Origin: a virus
DNA: 64,000 bases
Strand: one strand, 5' to 3'
Virus record (IMG/VR): IMGVR_UViG_3300026097_001455
Span: 1-64,000 of that record
Positions 1 to 7,416 of this stretch are shown piece after piece; the stretch's first letter is position 1; every line of letters begins with the position of its first letter. Both the position numbers and the translations under genes were made by a program. The notes beneath the pieces are model-generated. The model saw only the letters and a program-made list of their open reading frames with translations, did not search any database and had not been told where the DNA came from.

Positions 1-368
1 GTAGTCTTCCTTAGTTCTTGGGCTTTGTCGATAGAATACTTAGTTCCAGGGGATTTTGCATCCCAAAATGCAACAACCATATCACAGTTTTGAATAATTG
101 TTGTATTTCTATTAAATCCAGCTAGAGCATTATATTTAGACCCGTCACTGCGGGTCTTTATTTTGCATGGCTCTTTTGTGAGATCACTCCATTCAGCATT
201 ATATATTTCAGCATCTTTACCAAGAACTTCTTCAGAATACCTTTTACCAAGAGAATCAGCGCCCCTTGCCCCTCCAGACACAATTGCAGAAATCGGGTAA
301 AGGTCTAAAATTCTCTTTACCCGATCATAGTCATCAAAATCTCTTGAGCCTATTACTGCAACCTTCAT
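1..368 (-). CDS. SLOG-family (DUF2493/YspA-like) protein, C-terminus cut by window edge
   Basis: The reading frame starts at an ATG at 368 and stays open to base 1, giving about 122 visible residues. It begins MKVAVIGSRDFDDYDRV, followed by a Gly-rich turn IVSGGARGADSLGKRY and later NRNTTIIQNCDMVVAFWD. This is the Rossmann-like pattern of the DUF2493/YspA branch of the SLOG superfamily, whose members bind or process nucleotides or nucleotide-sugars. The start overlaps the stop of the upstream small membrane gene by one base (TAATG), so it is translationally coupled to the NAD+ gene cluster. SLOG domains are known as sensors of NAD-derived ligands in bacterial immunity, so its position may matter, but the substrate is unknown. 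Family call good; role inferred. Confidence 0.75.
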   Translation of the reverse strand, partial: MKVAVIGSRDFDDYDRVKRILDLYPISAIVSGGARGADSLGKRYSEEVLGKDAEIYNAEWSDLTKEPCKIKTRSDGSKYNALAGFNRNTTIIQNCDMVVAFWDAKSPGTKYSIDKAQELRKT

Positions 369-577
369 TAAAACGAATATATGAATGCCCAGCAGATGAG
401 GGATATAATGGCTGGCCAGGTCATTGGCCAGGTCCTTCTAACGCCATTCATCTTATCTATTAGCTCATCAGTTTCACTATAAGTAAGAGCTCCCAGAATC
501 CTTAAAGCAAGCACAATACTGGCTCCAATTCCGACTATCCATGCGATTATATGTAGAAATGTCATTAAACCGCTCAT
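368..577 (-). CDS. small membrane protein, two predicted TM segments
   Basis: A 69-residue protein with a hydrophobic segment at residues 5-27 (FLHIIAWIVGIGASIVLALR) and a second at about 48-69 (WPAIISLICWAFIYSF), joined by a charged loop containing ETDELIDKMNGVRRT. The predicted form is a two-pass inner-membrane protein. It lies between NadE and the SLOG gene, overlapping each by one base (TAATG), so all three are probably translated from one message. I do not recognise the family. Holin-like size and topology are possible, but it is not next to the endolysin. Confidence 0.6.
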   Translation of the reverse strand: MSGLMTFLHIIAWIVGIGASIVLALRILGALTYSETDELIDKMNGVRRTWPMTWPAIISLICWAFIYSF

Positions 578-1440
578 TATTTTCTATATTTAGAAGTTTC
601 GAAAATTGGAATGTCGATCATCTTGTGCAAGTTTGCGCTGTGCATCTTAGAATAAATGATAATTACCTCTCTTTCTCTTTCTGTTAAAGAAAAATCATCC
701 TTGTCATCATATGCAATAGGCTTACCGTTTTCATATACAGTTGAATCCTCTATCCACTGCATAGCCCACTCAAGCTCATCATACGTAGCACCAATCTGCT
801 CCTCATCAGTTCTGCCATCATCCCAAAGGCCATCTGTTGGTCTTGCTTTAAGTATAGAATCATTAACTCCAAGCTCAGCTCCAAGGGTATATACCTCTGA
901 TTTCATAAGATCAGCAATAGGACTGATGTCAACTCCACCGTCACCATACTTTGTGTAGAATCCTACACCGAAATCCTCAACTTTGTTTCCAGTACCACAA
1001 ACAAGCATTCCATTGATTTGTGCATTTGCATACAGCGTAGTCATTCTAAGTCTTGACCTCGTGTTTGCAAGAACCATAAATCTATTATCGCTCTTTGGGC
1101 CAGGGAGGTCTGAAGTGTTTTCAAGAGTTCTTATTAAAACATCATAAGTTTCAGTAAGATCAACTTTCTTTATTGTTACGTTGTCAAATTTCTCCTGGAG
1201 CCAGTCACAGTGTTCTTTTGCTCTTGTTACTTGATCGGCACCTTGATGTATTGGCATATCTAACACAAGAAGCTCCAAACCAGTCATTGCGCATAGCGTT
1301 GATGTTACTGCAGAATCAATACCTCCAGATACACCGATAACAAATCCTTTTGCTTTTGCGTTCTGAGCATAATCTTTAAGCCAAGCAGAAATATCCTCTG
1401 AAAGCTCTGTGTAATTTAATGTTGGTGTTAACGTTTTCAT
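577..1440 (-). CDS. nadE: NAD+ synthetase, ammonia-dependent type
   Basis: Catalyses the last step of NAD+ synthesis: nicotinate adenine dinucleotide + ATP + ammonia to NAD+. The 287-residue protein has the N-type ATP pyrophosphatase P-loop (VIGVSGGIDSAVTS, residues ~35-48), the substrate segment RSRLRMTTLYANAQ, and GTGNKVEDFGVGFYTKYGDGGVD typical of NadE (given here as a pattern, residues ~165-190). It lacks the N-terminal glutaminase domain, so it should use free ammonia. I chose the ATG at 1440 because the longer frame to 1500 would run through the end of nadD; this start leaves a 4-base gap. It ends one base into the next gene. Together with NadD and PncB it completes a Preiss-Handler pathway. 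Confidence 0.93.
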   Translation of the reverse strand: MKTLTPTLNYTELSEDISAWLKDYAQNAKAKGFVIGVSGGIDSAVTSTLCAMTGLELLVLDMPIHQGADQVTRAKEHCDWLQEKFDNVTIKKVDLTETYDVLIRTLENTSDLPGPKSDNRFMVLANTRSRLRMTTLYANAQINGMLVCGTGNKVEDFGVGFYTKYGDGGVDISPIADLMKSEVYTLGAELGVNDSILKARPTDGLWDDGRTDEEQIGATYDELEWAMQWIEDSTVYENGKPIAYDDKDDFSLTEREREVIIIYSKMHSANLHKMIDIPIFETSKYRK

Positions 1441-1444
1441 ATGC

Positions 1445-2065
1445 TTAATTTTTAAATAGACTATACTTGTCGATGTAGCTAATAACTTCATCTGGAACAA
1501 GGTATCTAAACGATTTATTATTTTTAATACAATTTCTTATATGAGTAGCAGATATGTCAATCTGAGGAACATCTTCAAGATACGTTGACACTGAGCGTGC
1601 TTTATCTGTAAGCTTCCACTTTGAATCCTTTTCAGAAACCTCTCTTGGATACACTATGATGTCATGCATATCAAGAACCTCTTCAGAGTTCTTCCAATAG
1701 TTGCCCATCTTTCTCTGGGTATCCGTGCCAGCTACTATAGAAAACTTAGTCTCTGGGTGTTTACTCCTTAACAATGCTAGTGTATCTGCTGTGTATGATG
1801 GTCGAGGCATATCAAACTCCACATCACATTCATGAAATCCTGGAGTGCCTGTAATGGCCAGCCTAACCATTTCAAGCCTGTGCACATCTTCTTCAAGTTC
1901 TCCAGTCTTTCTCTTAGCTGGATTCTCTGGAGATACAACAAACCAAAGCTCATCAATATCTGTCTGACTAAGCGCTGTATTAGCAACAATCAGATGTCCA
2001 ATATGTATTGGATTAAATGAGCCAAAATAAAGCCCTACTCTTTTATTTAGTAGTTTCTTCTGCAT
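1445..2065 (-). CDS. nadD: nicotinate-nucleotide adenylyltransferase
   Basis: Transfers AMP from ATP to nicotinate mononucleotide, forming NaAD for NadE. The class I nucleotidylyltransferase signature is clear: VGLYFGSFNPIHIGHLIVA with the HxGH-type motif at about residues 21-24, and the second signature ISATHIRN near the C-terminus (family usual ISSTxIR). FSIVAGTDTQRKMGNYWKN fits the NadD nicotinate-binding segment. Length about 206 residues, close to bacterial NadD. The ATG at 2065 lies inside the end of the Nudix gene (23-base overlap); an upstream ATG at 2095 would add ten residues. The order nudix-nadD-nadE is one transcription unit. Confidence 0.92.
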   Translation of the reverse strand: MQKKLLNKRVGLYFGSFNPIHIGHLIVANTALSQTDIDELWFVVSPENPAKRKTGELEEDVHRLEMVRLAITGTPGFHECDVEFDMPRPSYTADTLALLRSKHPETKFSIVAGTDTQRKMGNYWKNSEEVLDMHDIIVYPREVSEKDSKWKLTDKARSVSTYLEDVPQIDISATHIRNCIKNNKSFRYLVPDEVISYIDKYSLFKN

Positions 2066-2768
2066 CTGTGTTTCCTTCTGGTTTTGAATCATCATCTGAC
2101 TCTTCGTTAATCACTTTCTCTGCTGTGATCTTAGCTCTTTCAAGTCTTTGTATTTCAATATACTTCTTACCAGCATCAACTACATGCTGATTTCTTAAAT
2201 GCCAAAGAGCCTGAGCTCCCATTAGTGACTTAGCGTCAATAATCCCTCCATTAGCAACCATATCGAAAAACTCAGTAACTGGAACATTGTATATGTCAAT
2301 GTTTTCGTGCTCACTCTCTAAGCCCCCTCCATCTGTTACTCTATCAGCATTTGTTACGCTCGCTGCAAAAAGAAATACGGTTTCAGATGAATAACCTGGA
2401 GATGCGAAGAATCTGTTAAGAAACATCAAACTTTCCTCCTTAATATCATACCCTATTTCCTCAAGAACTTCTCTTCTAGCGGTTTCTTTAGGGTCTTCTC
2501 CCTCATCCATTTTCCCTGCAGGTATCTCAAATATTTTACCTCCAGCCTTTTTCTCTACTGCATAGCGATCTTGTTTAACCAGTATCACAGTATCTTCATC
2601 TGAGTTATACACCATAACTGAAACTGCATCTGGACGATCAAGTTTTAGTCTTGTGTATGTTACTTCATTTCCATCAGAATCAATTTCTTTAAATGTTGCT
2701 TCATCTACTTTGAAGTAGTTGTCAAATATTCTTTTCTCTGAAATTAATTCAACCTTAGGACTCTCCAT
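2043..2768 (-). CDS. Nudix hydrolase, ADP-ribose pyrophosphatase-like
   Basis: The 241-residue protein carries a perfect Nudix box at residues 85-107 (GKMDEGE, then REVLEEIGY), the Mg-binding helix that hydrolyses nucleoside diphosphate-X compounds. Downstream FFASPGYSSETVFLFAA matches the S-P-G segment characteristic of ADP-ribose pyrophosphatases (NudF/TrgB group). The expected reaction is ADP-ribose to AMP + ribose 5-phosphate; GDP-mannose hydrolase (NudK) is the nearest alternative. The acidic, Lys-rich C-terminal tail (residues ~210-241) looks disordered. It overlaps the thioesterase gene by 14 bases upstream and nadD by 23 downstream. In an NAD+ cluster it could remove ADP-ribose left by NADase-type defences or recycle it; that role is inferred. 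Confidence 0.88.
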   Translation of the reverse strand: MESPKVELISEKRIFDNYFKVDEATFKEIDSDGNEVTYTRLKLDRPDAVSVMVYNSDEDTVILVKQDRYAVEKKAGGKIFEIPAGKMDEGEDPKETARREVLEEIGYDIKEESLMFLNRFFASPGYSSETVFLFAASVTNADRVTDGGGLESEHENIDIYNVPVTEFFDMVANGGIIDAKSLMGAQALWHLRNQHVVDAGKKYIEIQRLERAKITAEKVINEESDDDSKPEGNTDAEETTK

Positions 2769-3174
2769 TTTCTTGTTCTTTTATTATTTTTTCAATTTTC
2801 GCTCGTGCTCCAATTCCAAGAGGTCTCTTGTTACCATCTTCCCTGTCTATTCTTACAAAGACAACTCTGGTTTTACAAACAAGTTTTTCAACGTCAGTAT
2901 GAACATTATACTTCCTTGCTTCAAGATCAAGCACGATGGAGGTCCTTCCAACAGTAACTGGTTTTCCGTAGATATAAACCTGCGTATTTTCTCTAACCTT
3001 TTTAAGAAATTTAATCCCTTCCATTTCGGCTGTAACCATACTATTTGATTCACACAGCCTTGTTGCCTCTATTGCCCCAGCTTTGTCTAAAAAACTCATC
3101 ATTCTACCACCGAAAAGGTTACCATGTACACCTAAATCACTTTTCAAAACAAGCTCCCTTGTAATAAGTCTCAT
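2755..3174 (-). CDS. hotdog-fold acyl-CoA thioesterase (YciA/4HBT type)
   Basis: About 139 residues with the hotdog signature DLGVHGNLFGGRMMSFLDKAGAIEA, where N-x-F-G-G and D-x-A-G-A match the YciA-type acyl-CoA hydrolase active site and the long helix. The central strands (VYIYGKPVTVGRTSIVLDLEA) fit the same fold. It would hydrolyse acyl-CoA thioesters to free acid and CoA. I chose the ATG at 3174 because it sits just after the homing endonuclease stop (3180) and gives the family-like N-terminus MRLITRELV. Its presence in a phage NAD+ cluster is unexpected; a link through the adenylate part of CoA or through membrane remodelling is speculation. Confidence 0.85.
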   Translation of the reverse strand: MRLITRELVLKSDLGVHGNLFGGRMMSFLDKAGAIEATRLCESNSMVTAEMEGIKFLKKVRENTQVYIYGKPVTVGRTSIVLDLEARKYNVHTDVEKLVCKTRVVFVRIDREDGNKRPLGIGARAKIEKIIKEQENGES

Positions 3175-3179
3175 AATTA

Positions 3180-3893
3180 TTAAATAAATTTCCAAATATA
3201 ACCACAAGCAGTTTTTCTCTTCCCTTTACAAACATCTCTTATATGGTCATTTTCATATTTTTTTATTGCAACACTTAAGCTTTCAAACTCCTCAAGCAAT
3301 TTATTGTTTTTACTAAATTTGCCAACTCTTAAAGTTTGATATACATTTCTTACTTTTATGTTCTTTGCAAATTTATCATTTTCTTTCCAGATAAAAAAAT
3401 AGCCATGAGAAAATTTAGGTTCTTTTTTTGGCATAGTACCCAATCTTCCCCCAATGGTTTCTTCTGCTTCTTTTTTCGATTCAAACTCTCTTAAAAAATC
3501 TCCCTTTAAATCATACTGAAGGATAGGTTTATAAAGTTTTTTATTTACTTTTTTTGGCCTTTTCCTTCCAGTTAAAGATTTTCTTATCCTTTCCTTGGTT
3601 TTTTCGCTTGTTTTATGTCCAAAAATAGCGCCTCCAGTTCCACCGTCTAATAAGTTATAAAAATCTTCAGACTTAACAGCATCAAAAAACTCTATCCACC
3701 ACTTTTCTCTTTCTTCAAGATGACTTCTATCAACACACTCTTCTAAGACTATTTTTTTAAAATTATGCTTGCCATATTTTTTAATAGCTTTAGTAAGTAT
3801 AGCTCCAGAGCCAAGATAACTTTTTTTGTTCTTTACATCCTTTCCTATATAACGTTTTTTATTAATAAGGTTAATTGTCATATAAACTATCAT
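3180..3893 (-). CDS. free-standing GIY-YIG homing endonuclease with NUMOD domains
   Basis: The N-terminus VYMTINLINKKRYIGK contains the GIY-YIG nuclease pattern, followed by the conserved Glu region (EEREKWWIEFFDA). After it comes a NUMOD3-type DNA-binding segment (GHKTSEKTKERIRKSLTGRK, residues ~92-111) and two NUMOD1-like segments (ILQYDLKGDFLREFESKKEA and a weaker one at the C-terminus, LLEEFESLSVAIKKYEND). This architecture is that of SegA/I-TevI-type homing endonucleases. It interrupts the NAD+ operon between the thioesterase and pncB, and its upstream flank holds a 23-bp direct repeat. Lys-rich and very AT-rich composition differs from the neighbours, consistent with recent mobility. 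Confidence 0.9.
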   Translation of the reverse strand: MIVYMTINLINKKRYIGKDVKNKKSYLGSGAILTKAIKKYGKHNFKKIVLEECVDRSHLEEREKWWIEFFDAVKSEDFYNLLDGGTGGAIFGHKTSEKTKERIRKSLTGRKRPKKVNKKLYKPILQYDLKGDFLREFESKKEAEETIGGRLGTMPKKEPKFSHGYFFIWKENDKFAKNIKVRNVYQTLRVGKFSKNNKLLEEFESLSVAIKKYENDHIRDVCKGKRKTACGYIWKFI

Positions 3894-3917
3894 AGCATTT
3901 TTTTACTATAAATAGCA

Positions 3918-3965
3918 TATAAAATCATCTTTCCACCAAAGCTATAAAATCATCTTTCCACCAAA
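3918..3965. repeat. 23-bp direct repeat, two copies, between homing endonuclease and pncB
   Basis: Two perfect copies of a 23-base unit (starting TATAAAATCATC, ending CCACCAAA) lie at 3918-3940 and 3943-3965, a period of 25. The second copy abuts the pncB stop codon. It may be a scar of the endonuclease gene's insertion or a short tandem duplication in the intergenic space. Confidence 0.8.
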
Positions 3966-5186
3966 TCACGCAGTCTCAGCAATTTTTTTGTCCTCAGAAT
4001 TAATTCTAAGAACACCTTTACAAAGTTTTATTTCTTCTTCAGTACCAGTATGCTTTCCTGGGTTGTCACTAAGCTTAACAGTATCAATCCAAAGGTTGCC
4101 AACTTTAACTTGAACAATCTTAATTACCATGTTAAGAGCTTTAACTCCAACATCATTTGTAAAATGAGTACCAATACCAAATGAACACATGATTCCGATC
4201 TTCTTGCAATAATTATGAAGTTCAACTGCTAAGTCTGTGTTGAGTCCATCAGAGAAAACTATAGTCTTTGATGCTGGGTCTATTCCAAGTTTTTCATAGT
4301 GTGCAACAACTTTGTCTGCAAACTTAAATGGGTCACCAGAGTCGTGACGAAGACCATCATAAAGCTTAGCTTCCTTTGTGTCAAAGGTTCTGAAGAAAAC
4401 ATCAACAGTAAATGTATCTGGAAGTGCTATTCCAAGGTCTCCCTTGTAAACTTTAACCCAGTTTTCAACACCTCTTGGATTTGCCATTGTATACCCATAG
4501 TGTACAGCATGGAACATGAACCACTCATGGGCATGCGTTCCTATTGGTTGTAGATCAAGCTCCATTGCAATGTGAACGTTTGAGGTTCCTACAAGGAAAG
4601 GGTTTCCGTTGTTGAAGCATGATTGTAAATCTTTTACAAGCTCTAGCTGATTTTCGTAAGAGTATCTTCTTCGAGTTCCAAAGTCAGCTACCTTCATTCC
4701 ATTTGTGTAGAATTTTTGCCCTTTCTCTAGGTTGTTCTCACGTCTCTCATCTCTACTCATGATTGACTCACCAGTCATTTTAAAATAAAGCTCAGATATA
4801 AGCGCCATTAATGGAACTTCCCATAGAATGGTTCTGTACCAATAGCCTTCAATTGTAACTGTAAGCTCTCCTCCATCTTGAGTAATTCCAATCTCAGAAG
4901 AATCGAATTGATATGACTTTAAGAAGTCGATGTAAGTAGGCTTCAAGAATTTTCCACATTTTGTTGTAAGGAAGTCAGCTTGCTTCTGATTGAGCTTGAG
5001 TTGCTCCATTCTCTTAAGTTCTTGTCGAAGCTTAAGAGCAAATCCATCTGGGAATTCTGTCTTCCCTCTATTGATAAAGCTGTATCTGACCCACTCTCTC
5101 TGAAAGAGTTCTACAACGCCTTGCTGCATTGTAAATTTGTATAGGTCATTATCAAGTATTGATCTTATAATTCCAGTATCGCTCAT
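3966..5186 (-). CDS. pncB: nicotinate phosphoribosyltransferase
   Basis: Makes nicotinate mononucleotide from nicotinic acid and PRPP, the committed step of the Preiss-Handler pathway. The 406-residue protein begins like E. coli PncB (SILDNDLYKFTMQQGV), followed by GYWYRTILWEVPLMALISE, DFGTRRRYSYENQ, LQPIGTHAHEWFMFHAVH and LRHDSGDPFKFADK, all hallmark segments of bacterial NAPRTs, including the phosphoribosyl-binding region near VFSDGLNTDLA. Length matches the family (about 400). The ATG at 5186 aligns with the family N-terminus. Its message probably starts at the intergenic CGTATAAC element 15 bases upstream; the homing endonuclease lies between it and the other NAD+ genes, all on the same strand. 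Nicotinamide phosphoribosyltransferase is less likely given these motifs. Confidence 0.93.
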   Translation of the reverse strand: MSDTGIIRSILDNDLYKFTMQQGVVELFQREWVRYSFINRGKTEFPDGFALKLRQELKRMEQLKLNQKQADFLTTKCGKFLKPTYIDFLKSYQFDSSEIGITQDGGELTVTIEGYWYRTILWEVPLMALISELYFKMTGESIMSRDERRENNLEKGQKFYTNGMKVADFGTRRRYSYENQLELVKDLQSCFNNGNPFLVGTSNVHIAMELDLQPIGTHAHEWFMFHAVHYGYTMANPRGVENWVKVYKGDLGIALPDTFTVDVFFRTFDTKEAKLYDGLRHDSGDPFKFADKVVAHYEKLGIDPASKTIVFSDGLNTDLAVELHNYCKKIGIMCSFGIGTHFTNDVGVKALNMVIKIVQVKVGNLWIDTVKLSDNPGKHTGTEEEIKLCKGVLRINSEDKKIAETA

Positions 5187-6006: not shown

Positions 6007-7416
6007 ATGGAAGGTTATATTAGAAATAAAATAAGAGCAATACTTAATGAAGAATTTGGTTCTGGCCAACAAGAATTAGCCAAGCTTGTAACAGTACTGA
6101 ATGCGCTAGAATTTAAAGATGATGTCATTGCCGCAGGTGGAGAAATCTATGCAGTAGGAGGAATTGTGCGTGATGCTATAATGGGAACTCCTGGAGACGA
6201 TCTTGATATTGTTGTAAGAGGAATTCCATATGACAAGCTATTTGCTATCCTTTCTAAATATGGAAATGCTACTGACACTTCTCACGAGAAAGAGGATGGT
6301 GATAAAGACTTTGGCTCTACTATCTTTATTTCAAATAATCCCCAGTTTAATGAGTTCTTAGAAAAGAGTGGAGTTGATTTGGATATTGACGTAATGCTTC
6401 CACGTAGAGATGCTAAGGACCCTAATGTAAAAGGTCATAGAGGTATTAAATCTGATGTCAATCCTAGTTACACAATACATGATGATCTTGAGAGGCGTGA
6501 TATAACCATCAACGCAATAGCTATGGATACTGATGGAAACTTAATCACAAACGGAACTGGGCTAGAGGATATTAAATCTGGAACTATAAAAGCTGTTAAT
6601 GAAGACGCTTTCATAGAAGACCCCTTAAGAATGCTTCGTGCAATTAGGTTTGCTGCCAGATACAATTACGATATTGACCAGACTACCGTTAATCTCATAA
6701 AAAGTAATGCTCCAATGCTCTCAGATAAGCAAGAGCTCCCAAAGGAGAGATTCCTTAAGGAGTTTAATAAGATGATTGGCAAGTCTGATCTTAAGCGTGC
6801 TGTTAAGATGCTTGTTGATTTTGATATGTACAAACATATATTTGGTGTTGATTCTAAAATTAGAGACTTCAGCAAATTTGATAAGGCTGATAATATAGGT
6901 GAGTTTGCATATATGATGTTTGAGGGTCAACCGCTAGACGAAGTTGTTCCTTTAATCAATAATAACATCACCAACGACAAAAACATACTCAGCTACTCAA
7001 AGGCGCTTGTAGAGTATGAGAAAGCTGCTAAAGGTTATGTCAGAGGAATTTATGCAAAGGAAGTTGCGCCATGGGTAACAATGAGTAAGATAGCGAAATT
7101 GTACAAGCTATCACCTAGCGCTATGCTAAACTCGTCTTACATAGAAGATGGGGATAAAGAATTAATTAACAAAATTCACTCTGGAGAGATTCCTGCAAGT
7201 GAGCATGATATTGATCTAAAGAAAGATGATTTTAAGAATTTTGTAATAGACCTAATTAAGCAAGAGGAAGGTGAGTTTGTTCCTAAGAGAGATGGAATCA
7301 AGATGGGCCGTGCAAAAGAGTCTGTGTTAATCGGCATATACAATCATGAAGTTGATAACAACTCTGAAGACATAAAAAGATTCCTTGAGGACAATAAAGA
7401 AAAGTGGATGTCCTAA
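6007..7416 (+). CDS. CCA-adding-type tRNA nucleotidyltransferase / poly(A) polymerase family
   Basis: A class II polymerase-beta-type nucleotidyltransferase of 469 residues. The head motif YAVGGIVRDAIMG followed by DDLDIVVRG (residues ~48-70) holds the catalytic aspartates; RRDITINAIAMD (~163) is the neck motif that selects ATP/CTP, and EDPLRMLRAIRFAARYNYDI fits the body domain. It would add or repair tRNA 3'-CCA ends, or add poly(A). The N-terminus MEGYIRNKIRAILNEEF is extra to the family and resembles a short helix shared by several proteins in this window. It is convergent with, and overlaps by four bases, the next gene. No tRNA gene is visible here. Confidence 0.85.
   Translation: MEGYIRNKIRAILNEEFGSGQQELAKLVTVLNALEFKDDVIAAGGEIYAVGGIVRDAIMGTPGDDLDIVVRGIPYDKLFAILSKYGNATDTSHEKEDGDKDFGSTIFISNNPQFNEFLEKSGVDLDIDVMLPRRDAKDPNVKGHRGIKSDVNPSYTIHDDLERRDITINAIAMDTDGNLITNGTGLEDIKSGTIKAVNEDAFIEDPLRMLRAIRFAARYNYDIDQTTVNLIKSNAPMLSDKQELPKERFLKEFNKMIGKSDLKRAVKMLVDFDMYKHIFGVDSKIRDFSKFDKADNIGEFAYMMFEGQPLDEVVPLINNNITNDKNILSYSKALVEYEKAAKGYVRGIYAKEVAPWVTMSKIAKLYKLSPSAMLNSSYIEDGDKELINKIHSGEIPASEHDIDLKKDDFKNFVIDLIKQEEGEFVPKRDGIKMGRAKESVLIGIYNHEVDNNSEDIKRFLEDNKEKWMS

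Follow-up and report, generated by a model that had tools for sequence, protein, structure and literature searches.

Gene content of the locus

The IMG/VR virus record IMGVR_UViG_3300026097_001455 harbors at one end a string of genes that is predicted to encode the synthesis of nicotinamide adenine dinucleotide (NAD+) from nicotinate, i.e. the Preiss-Handler pathway. The window, which denotes the whole stretch of DNA analyzed here, corresponds to bases 1 to 64,000 of the 80,861-base record, and the genome is incomplete. Genes for a baseplate wedge, an endolysin, a phage helicase and an SbcC-like protein support the phage identity of the record. The string ranges from position 5186 down to position 1, all of its genes are located on the minus strand, and neighbors mostly overlap or abut. 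Their order is pncB, a GIY-YIG homing endonuclease gene, a hotdog thioesterase gene, a Nudix hydrolase gene, nadD, nadE, an open reading frame of 69 amino acids and a SLOG gene. A preliminary description of this DNA had placed PncB, NadD and NadE on one strand within 4.6 kb, which is corroborated by our analysis: all three proteins pass their family cut-offs, and alignment to the E. coli enzymes revealed intact catalytic motifs, so that the absence of a catalytic residue, which had been named as a ground for refutation, was not observed. Judged by family and motif, the predicted route from nicotinate to NAD+ is complete.

The first gene, pncB (3966..5186, 406 amino acids), encodes a putative nicotinate phosphoribosyltransferase that would form nicotinate mononucleotide (NaMN) from nicotinate, phosphoribosyl pyrophosphate (PRPP) and ATP. 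The protein exceeds the cut-offs of TIGR01514 (411 versus 270 bits) and PRK05321 (458 versus 379 bits), its PDB match is 2im5 (E=3e-93), and its aligned motifs comprise RHDSGDP and GTHAHEW with the phospho-histidine, a catalytic residue that is invariant across 12 phage PncB copies. NadD (1445..2095, 216 amino acids), the predicted nicotinate-nucleotide adenylyltransferase generating nicotinate adenine dinucleotide (NaAD) from NaMN and ATP, reaches 160 bits against TIGR00482 (cut-off 112), matches the NadD structure 1kam (E=4e-30) and retains the motifs GSFNPIHIGH and ISATHIR. NadE (577..1440, 287 amino acids from the ATG) belongs to the ammonia-dependent NAD synthetase family and would produce NAD+ from NaAD, NH3 and ATP. 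With 167 bits it clears the TIGR00552 cut-off of 64; it lacks a glutaminase domain, has the NH3-dependent NadE 3fiu as its best PDB match and shares with the E. coli enzyme SGGIDS, the Glu of GTGNKVED, TKYGDGG and the downstream Lys. The nadE gene lies where it had been described, but its start is probably the ATG at 1440, just past the nadD stop, rather than the TTG at 1500. The gene of the Nudix hydrolase (2043..2768, 241 amino acids; AdpP/NudK subfamily) overlaps nadD; the protein obtains 99 bits against TIGR00052 (AdpP/YffH subfamily, cut-off 80), and its Nudix box GKMDEGEDPKETARREVLEEIGY is complete, with SPG downstream and a glutamate in HENIDI. ADP-ribose is its likely substrate. The Pfam results for PncB, NadD, NadE and the Nudix hydrolase agree with the NCBIfam assignments.

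The string contains further genes. The GIY-YIG/NUMOD1 homing endonuclease gene (3180..3893; TIGR01453 over the cut-off, PHROG 314) is inserted into the string, and the YciA-like hotdog acyl-CoA thioesterase gene (2755..3207; PF03061, E=3e-14) likely starts at the ATG at 3174. The open reading frame of 69 amino acids (368..577) touches both nadE and the SLOG gene and may be part of the same string as nadE. The SLOG (YspA/YAcAr) gene itself (1..368; PF10686, 36 bits, cut-off 28) is cut by the contig end. SLOG domains are able to bind NAD-derived ligands, and a link of this gene to the string is possible. On the other side, a gene for a nucleotidyltransferase of the poly(A) polymerase/CCA-adding type (6007-7416, plus strand) adjoins the string, and it is conserved in the sister phage introduced below.

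Promoter-like and terminator-like sites around the string occur near the shuffled expectation, and a transcription unit is therefore not established. The upstream regions are A-rich and lack clear Shine-Dalgarno sites, and the nearest cellular relatives of the PncB are those of Bacteroidota, which together suggests a host from this phylum.

Recurrence of the gene set in phages

A search of IMG/VR with PncB retrieved a sister contig of 142 kb (L002) that carries the string in full: its homing endonuclease is 81% identical and occupies the same position, and the thioesterase, the Nudix hydrolase, NadD and NadE are likewise encoded, with a SLOG homologue again located 3' of nadE. When 12 aligned phage PncBs were used as the query of a scan, 62 phage loci were retrieved. 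Within 6 kb of PncB, NadE is present at 38 of 54 dereplicated phage loci, a member of the nicotinamidase family at 32, a NadD-like protein at 17 and a Nudix hydrolase at 13, and these phage counts are lower bounds, as exemplified by the 508-kb contig L203, which was reached only via NadE. All profiles were built locally; those for NadE, PncA and NadD were checked for sensitivity with the E. coli proteins, whereas the Nudix profile was used without such a check. Among the 74 dereplicated closest cellular pncB loci the corresponding numbers are one (NadE), five (nicotinamidase), one (NadD-like) and three (Nudix), and at least two of the positives (L034 and L060) may derive from phages whose contigs were binned into metagenome-assembled genomes. 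Both contigs of bacterial bins have a phage-like look and carry PncB-Nudix-NadD (L034, JAJFLM010000453.1) and Nudix-NadE-PncB-PncA (L060, JAHJMN010000175.1) strings.

NadE and nicotinamidase are always encoded on the same strand as PncB, but phage genomes frequently contain extended runs of genes on one strand anyway. The PncB tree exhibits deep phage lineages with few switches between phages and cells. One example of the gene set is contig L203, where PncB, NadD, PncA, NadE and a Nudix hydrolase are located within 6.5 kb and the NadE falls into the same subclade as that of the window. When IMG/VR was scanned with one NadD or one NadE sequence as the query, only the sister contig or nothing was retrieved. 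An inherited host operon was rejected as the source of the string, since the closest cellular pncB genes, mostly from Bacteroidota, do not adjoin nadE. The string is a real and intact cassette that belongs to a recurrent gene association of phages.

Several other genes were observed in the vicinity of phage PncBs. In several contigs of large phages (L134:4921-11982, L135:9992-19254; also L143, L147, L150 and L152), the genes for a triad of a VWA-like protein, a PP2C phosphatase and a protein kinase are interspersed among those for PncB, NadE and nicotinamidase. A radical SAM gene is located just upstream of PncB at ten loci (L116, L118, L119, L121, L122, L124, L127, L128, L130 and L139). Genes for TonB-dependent receptors, which are odd for phages, occur a few kb from PncB in L115, L116, L121, L127, L129, L131 and L029, the latter being the 735-kb phage LR756501. 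In L012, a cpn60-type chaperonin is encoded between PncB and NadE, and a gene for an inosine-monophosphate dehydrogenase/GMP reductase follows that of the nicotinamidase (L012:7110-8732 and L012:10745-11839). A macro-like protein with a weak PF01661 match was found within the 10-kb PncB flanks at L122:14746-15276 and at five further loci, and it is perhaps tied to the handling of ADP-ribose.

Comparison with known NAD+ pathways

Phage gene sets for the Preiss-Handler pathway are already present in public records. The isolated Bacillus phage G (NC_023719) encodes a Nudix hydrolase (gp273), an isochorismatase (gp275), PncB (gp277), NadD (gp281) and NadE (gp283), so that nicotinate phosphoribosyltransferase, NaMN adenylyltransferase, NAD synthetase and Nudix hydrolase are located, as in the string of the window, on one strand, here within 7.2 kb. 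Its string differs by the additional isochorismatase-family gene, which is nicotinamidase-like, and by the NAD-using RNA 2'-phosphotransferase KptA (gp280, L032:5480-6040); moreover, its NadE is canonical and its PncB is of the TIGR01513 type, whereas that of the window is of the TIGR01514 type. The affiliation of the two PncBs with different subfamilies indicates that the gene set was assembled independently and more than once. The second example is Sinorhizobium phage Phosso with genes for NadE, PncB, a MutT-like protein, a nicotinamide mononucleotide (NMN) adenylyltransferase and a hydrolase in 6 kb. Searches of the open-access literature retrieved no paper that discusses a Preiss-Handler cassette in phages.

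In PMC12774641, NARP1 (Adps and Namat) is presented as a pathway by which phages restore NAD+ in the course of infection. The likeness to the cassette would be one of function only. In NARP1, two steps lead to the union of ADP-ribose pyrophosphate with nicotinamide, and ADP-ribose is used directly. Neither a Prs-like Adps (PF13793) nor a Namat-like gene was detected in the incomplete 80.9-kb record, where the sole PF04095 match is PncB. The 'nicotinate phosphoribosyltransferase' genes of phages Barba19A and V22, which resemble NARP1-type genes, are located beside or near Prs and are not matched by the PncB of the window. NARP2 and the NadV-NatV system of KVP40 salvage NAD+ by a phosphoribosyltransferase and an adenylyltransferase, which resembles the first two steps of the cassette, but they start from nicotinamide and proceed via NMN, and no NAD synthetase is needed. 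The salvage in KVP40 has been described (PMC6715854). The PncB of the window matches the NadV family (phrog_448) weakly with 55 bits, and the only PF01467 match of the record, which could have revealed an adenylyltransferase of the NARP2/NadV type, is NadD.

The profile comparison with NARP1 and NARP2, which had been proposed as a check, hence retrieved none of their defining genes from the incomplete record; an identity with either pathway is rejected and the predicted nicotinate route is distinct. The suggestion of a third route from nicotinate holds with respect to its completeness by family and motif and its difference from NARP1 and NARP2, but the route is not unique to this phage, as documented by phage G and dozens of phage contigs. 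The cellular Preiss-Handler pathway comprises the same three enzymes and the same chemistry; the closest cellular pncB loci are unclustered, whereas the phage genes are clustered, often together with nicotinamidase and Nudix genes.

Proposed role of the cassette in the infected cell

We consider it probable that the string represents a phage Preiss-Handler cassette that keeps or rebuilds the NAD+ pool of the infected cell, and a nicotinate-to-NAD+ route is its likely role. PncB would convert nicotinate and PRPP to NaMN, NadD would convert NaMN to NaAD, and NadE would amidate NaAD to NAD+. The Nudix hydrolase probably clears ADP-ribose or another nucleoside diphosphate sugar, thereby returning AMP and ribose-5-phosphate, from which the host Prs would regenerate PRPP as a supply for PncB; PF13793 has no match that could represent a phage Prs in the 80.9-kb record. 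Nicotinamide from NAD-cleaving enzymes would first have to be deamidated by a nicotinamidase, which would be host-made here and phage-made in many relatives. The activity of the cassette, its flux and its timing are what we infer from the genes.

Several observations weigh against this reading. The clade of the NadE (phrog_11189) is associated with sugar clusters at 67 of its 84 loci, 64 of which contain a UDP-glucose dehydrogenase gene, and we found no residue switch that distinguishes NadE proteins of pyridine context from those of sugar context. The Nudix hydrolase reaches neither of the equivalog cut-offs (AdpP, 73 of 248 bits; NudK, 103 of 234 bits); the preliminary description of an ADP-ribose-type enzyme overlapping nadD is accordingly borne out for the overlap and the subfamily, but its type is not settled. 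Nicotinamidase (PF00857) has no match in the incomplete record or in the sister. No defense or counter-defense gene was recognized beside the string, and NAD-consuming genes such as LigA were not found in the window record. The string as a defense system in its own right was dismissed, since PADLOC gave only a weak match to the Nudix domain.

The missing PF00857 match implies that the phage would need a host nicotinamidase, or one encoded in its unsampled part. This requirement had been anticipated, and it applies to the present record but not to the phages in general, since 19 of 27 PncB phage records carry their own PF00857 protein; the copy of L012 passes the nicotinamidase cut-off. Nicotinamide is the product released by NADases, and the frequent pairing of PncB with nicotinamidase therefore fits a recycling of nicotinamide, without proving it.

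The selective reason for the cassette may be sought in NAD-depleting immunity rather than in a general demand for NAD, an explanation to which we give somewhat less than even odds; the use of the cassette against NADase immunity is plausible. A general metabolic supply is a serious competitor and may quite possibly apply: the cassette would raise NAD+ for phage biosynthesis, i.e. for the metabolism of ribonucleotides and thymidylate, for an NAD-dependent DNA ligase and for NAD-consuming enzymes, unrelated to NADase immunity. It is in agreement with the thymidylate synthase and deoxynucleoside monophosphate kinase genes of the window, with KptA inside the phage G cluster and with LigA, which is encoded in seven of 27 PncB phage records and, in the case of L010, within the cluster itself. 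However, most of the PncB phages searched lack LigA, which was not found in the window record either, and the supply of this ligase is unsupported as a general reason. The frequency of nicotinamidase (32 of 54 loci) moreover points to the recycling of a product of NAD cleavage.

The sugar context of phrog_11189 raises a different explanation, namely, that the NadE-like enzyme is no NAD synthetase but uses ammonia to amidate a different carboxylate, for example that of a uronic acid sugar nucleotide, and that the pathway stops at NaAD. The NadE of the window shares the one-residue insertion of this clade (motif GTGNKVED[FY]GVGFYTKYGDGGVDI), whose sugar-cluster members include those of cyanophages, HTVC008M and LR756502. 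Only four loci of the clade, plus the window, are located beside PncB. We regard this explanation as unlikely, given that neither the window record nor the sister record revealed a UDP-glucose dehydrogenase, that the NadE passes TIGR00552 with intact catalytic motifs, and that all five members with pyridine context are found in one subclade of eight members with a support of 99. NadE is nevertheless the least certain of the three predicted steps, because its clade has a second context and no residues that clearly separate the two.

For those relatives whose genes adjoin that of UDP-glucose dehydrogenase, the substrate of amidation may be a uronate rather than NaAD. The Kyanoviridae proteins of phrog_11189 are about 50% identical to the NadE of the window and contain the same insertion motif, but they adjoin UDP-glucose dehydrogenase and carbamoyltransferase genes in sugar clusters. 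NadE-like proteins in sugar-nucleotide clusters were observed at L178, L179, L180, L181 and 63 further IMG/VR loci; their annotation as 'NAD synthetase' is doubtful and they may represent uronate amidotransferases.

A very improbable variant places NadE ahead of the adenylylation: it would serve as an NMN synthetase, converting NaMN to NMN, and NadD or another adenylyltransferase would finish NAD+. It derives from the best PDB match 3fiu, which is presumably the Francisella enzyme. The NadE homologue of Francisella works as an NMN synthetase, a role that goes with the replacement of NadD by NadM (PMC3376133). The window, in contrast, encodes a clear NadD, the enzyme making NaAD. Chance neighborhood of separate passenger genes, suggested by the presence of two genes that are not evidently connected to the pathway, those of the homing endonuclease and the thioesterase, is hardly credible and was rejected in view of the same-strand association of PncB with NadE or nicotinamidase across many phage lineages and its rarity near cellular pncB (NadE at 38 of 54 phage versus one of 74 cellular loci).

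Returning to the Preiss-Handler cassette, its wider significance may be that of a third, widespread route, a possibility that we put forward with reserve: a deamidated salvage cassette of large phages, consisting of nicotinamidase, PncB, NadD or NadR, NadE and often a Nudix hydrolase, would recycle NADase-released nicotinamide and ADP-ribose into NAD+; it would have been assembled more than once, and the version of the window would rely on the host nicotinamidase. The sugar-cluster members of the NadE clade serve as a warning that genes of cyanophages and pelagiphages may be incorrectly annotated as 'NAD synthetase'. The window, contig L203 and the isolated Bacillus phage G provide a concrete and testable gene set with which the reason for NAD+ synthesis genes in phages can be addressed. 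Should the cassette confer protection from NAD-depleting defenses, it would represent a third chemical route of counter-defense, starting from nicotinate or nicotinamide with no need for ADP-ribose, and counter-defense by rebuilding NAD+ from these precursors would be common among large phages.

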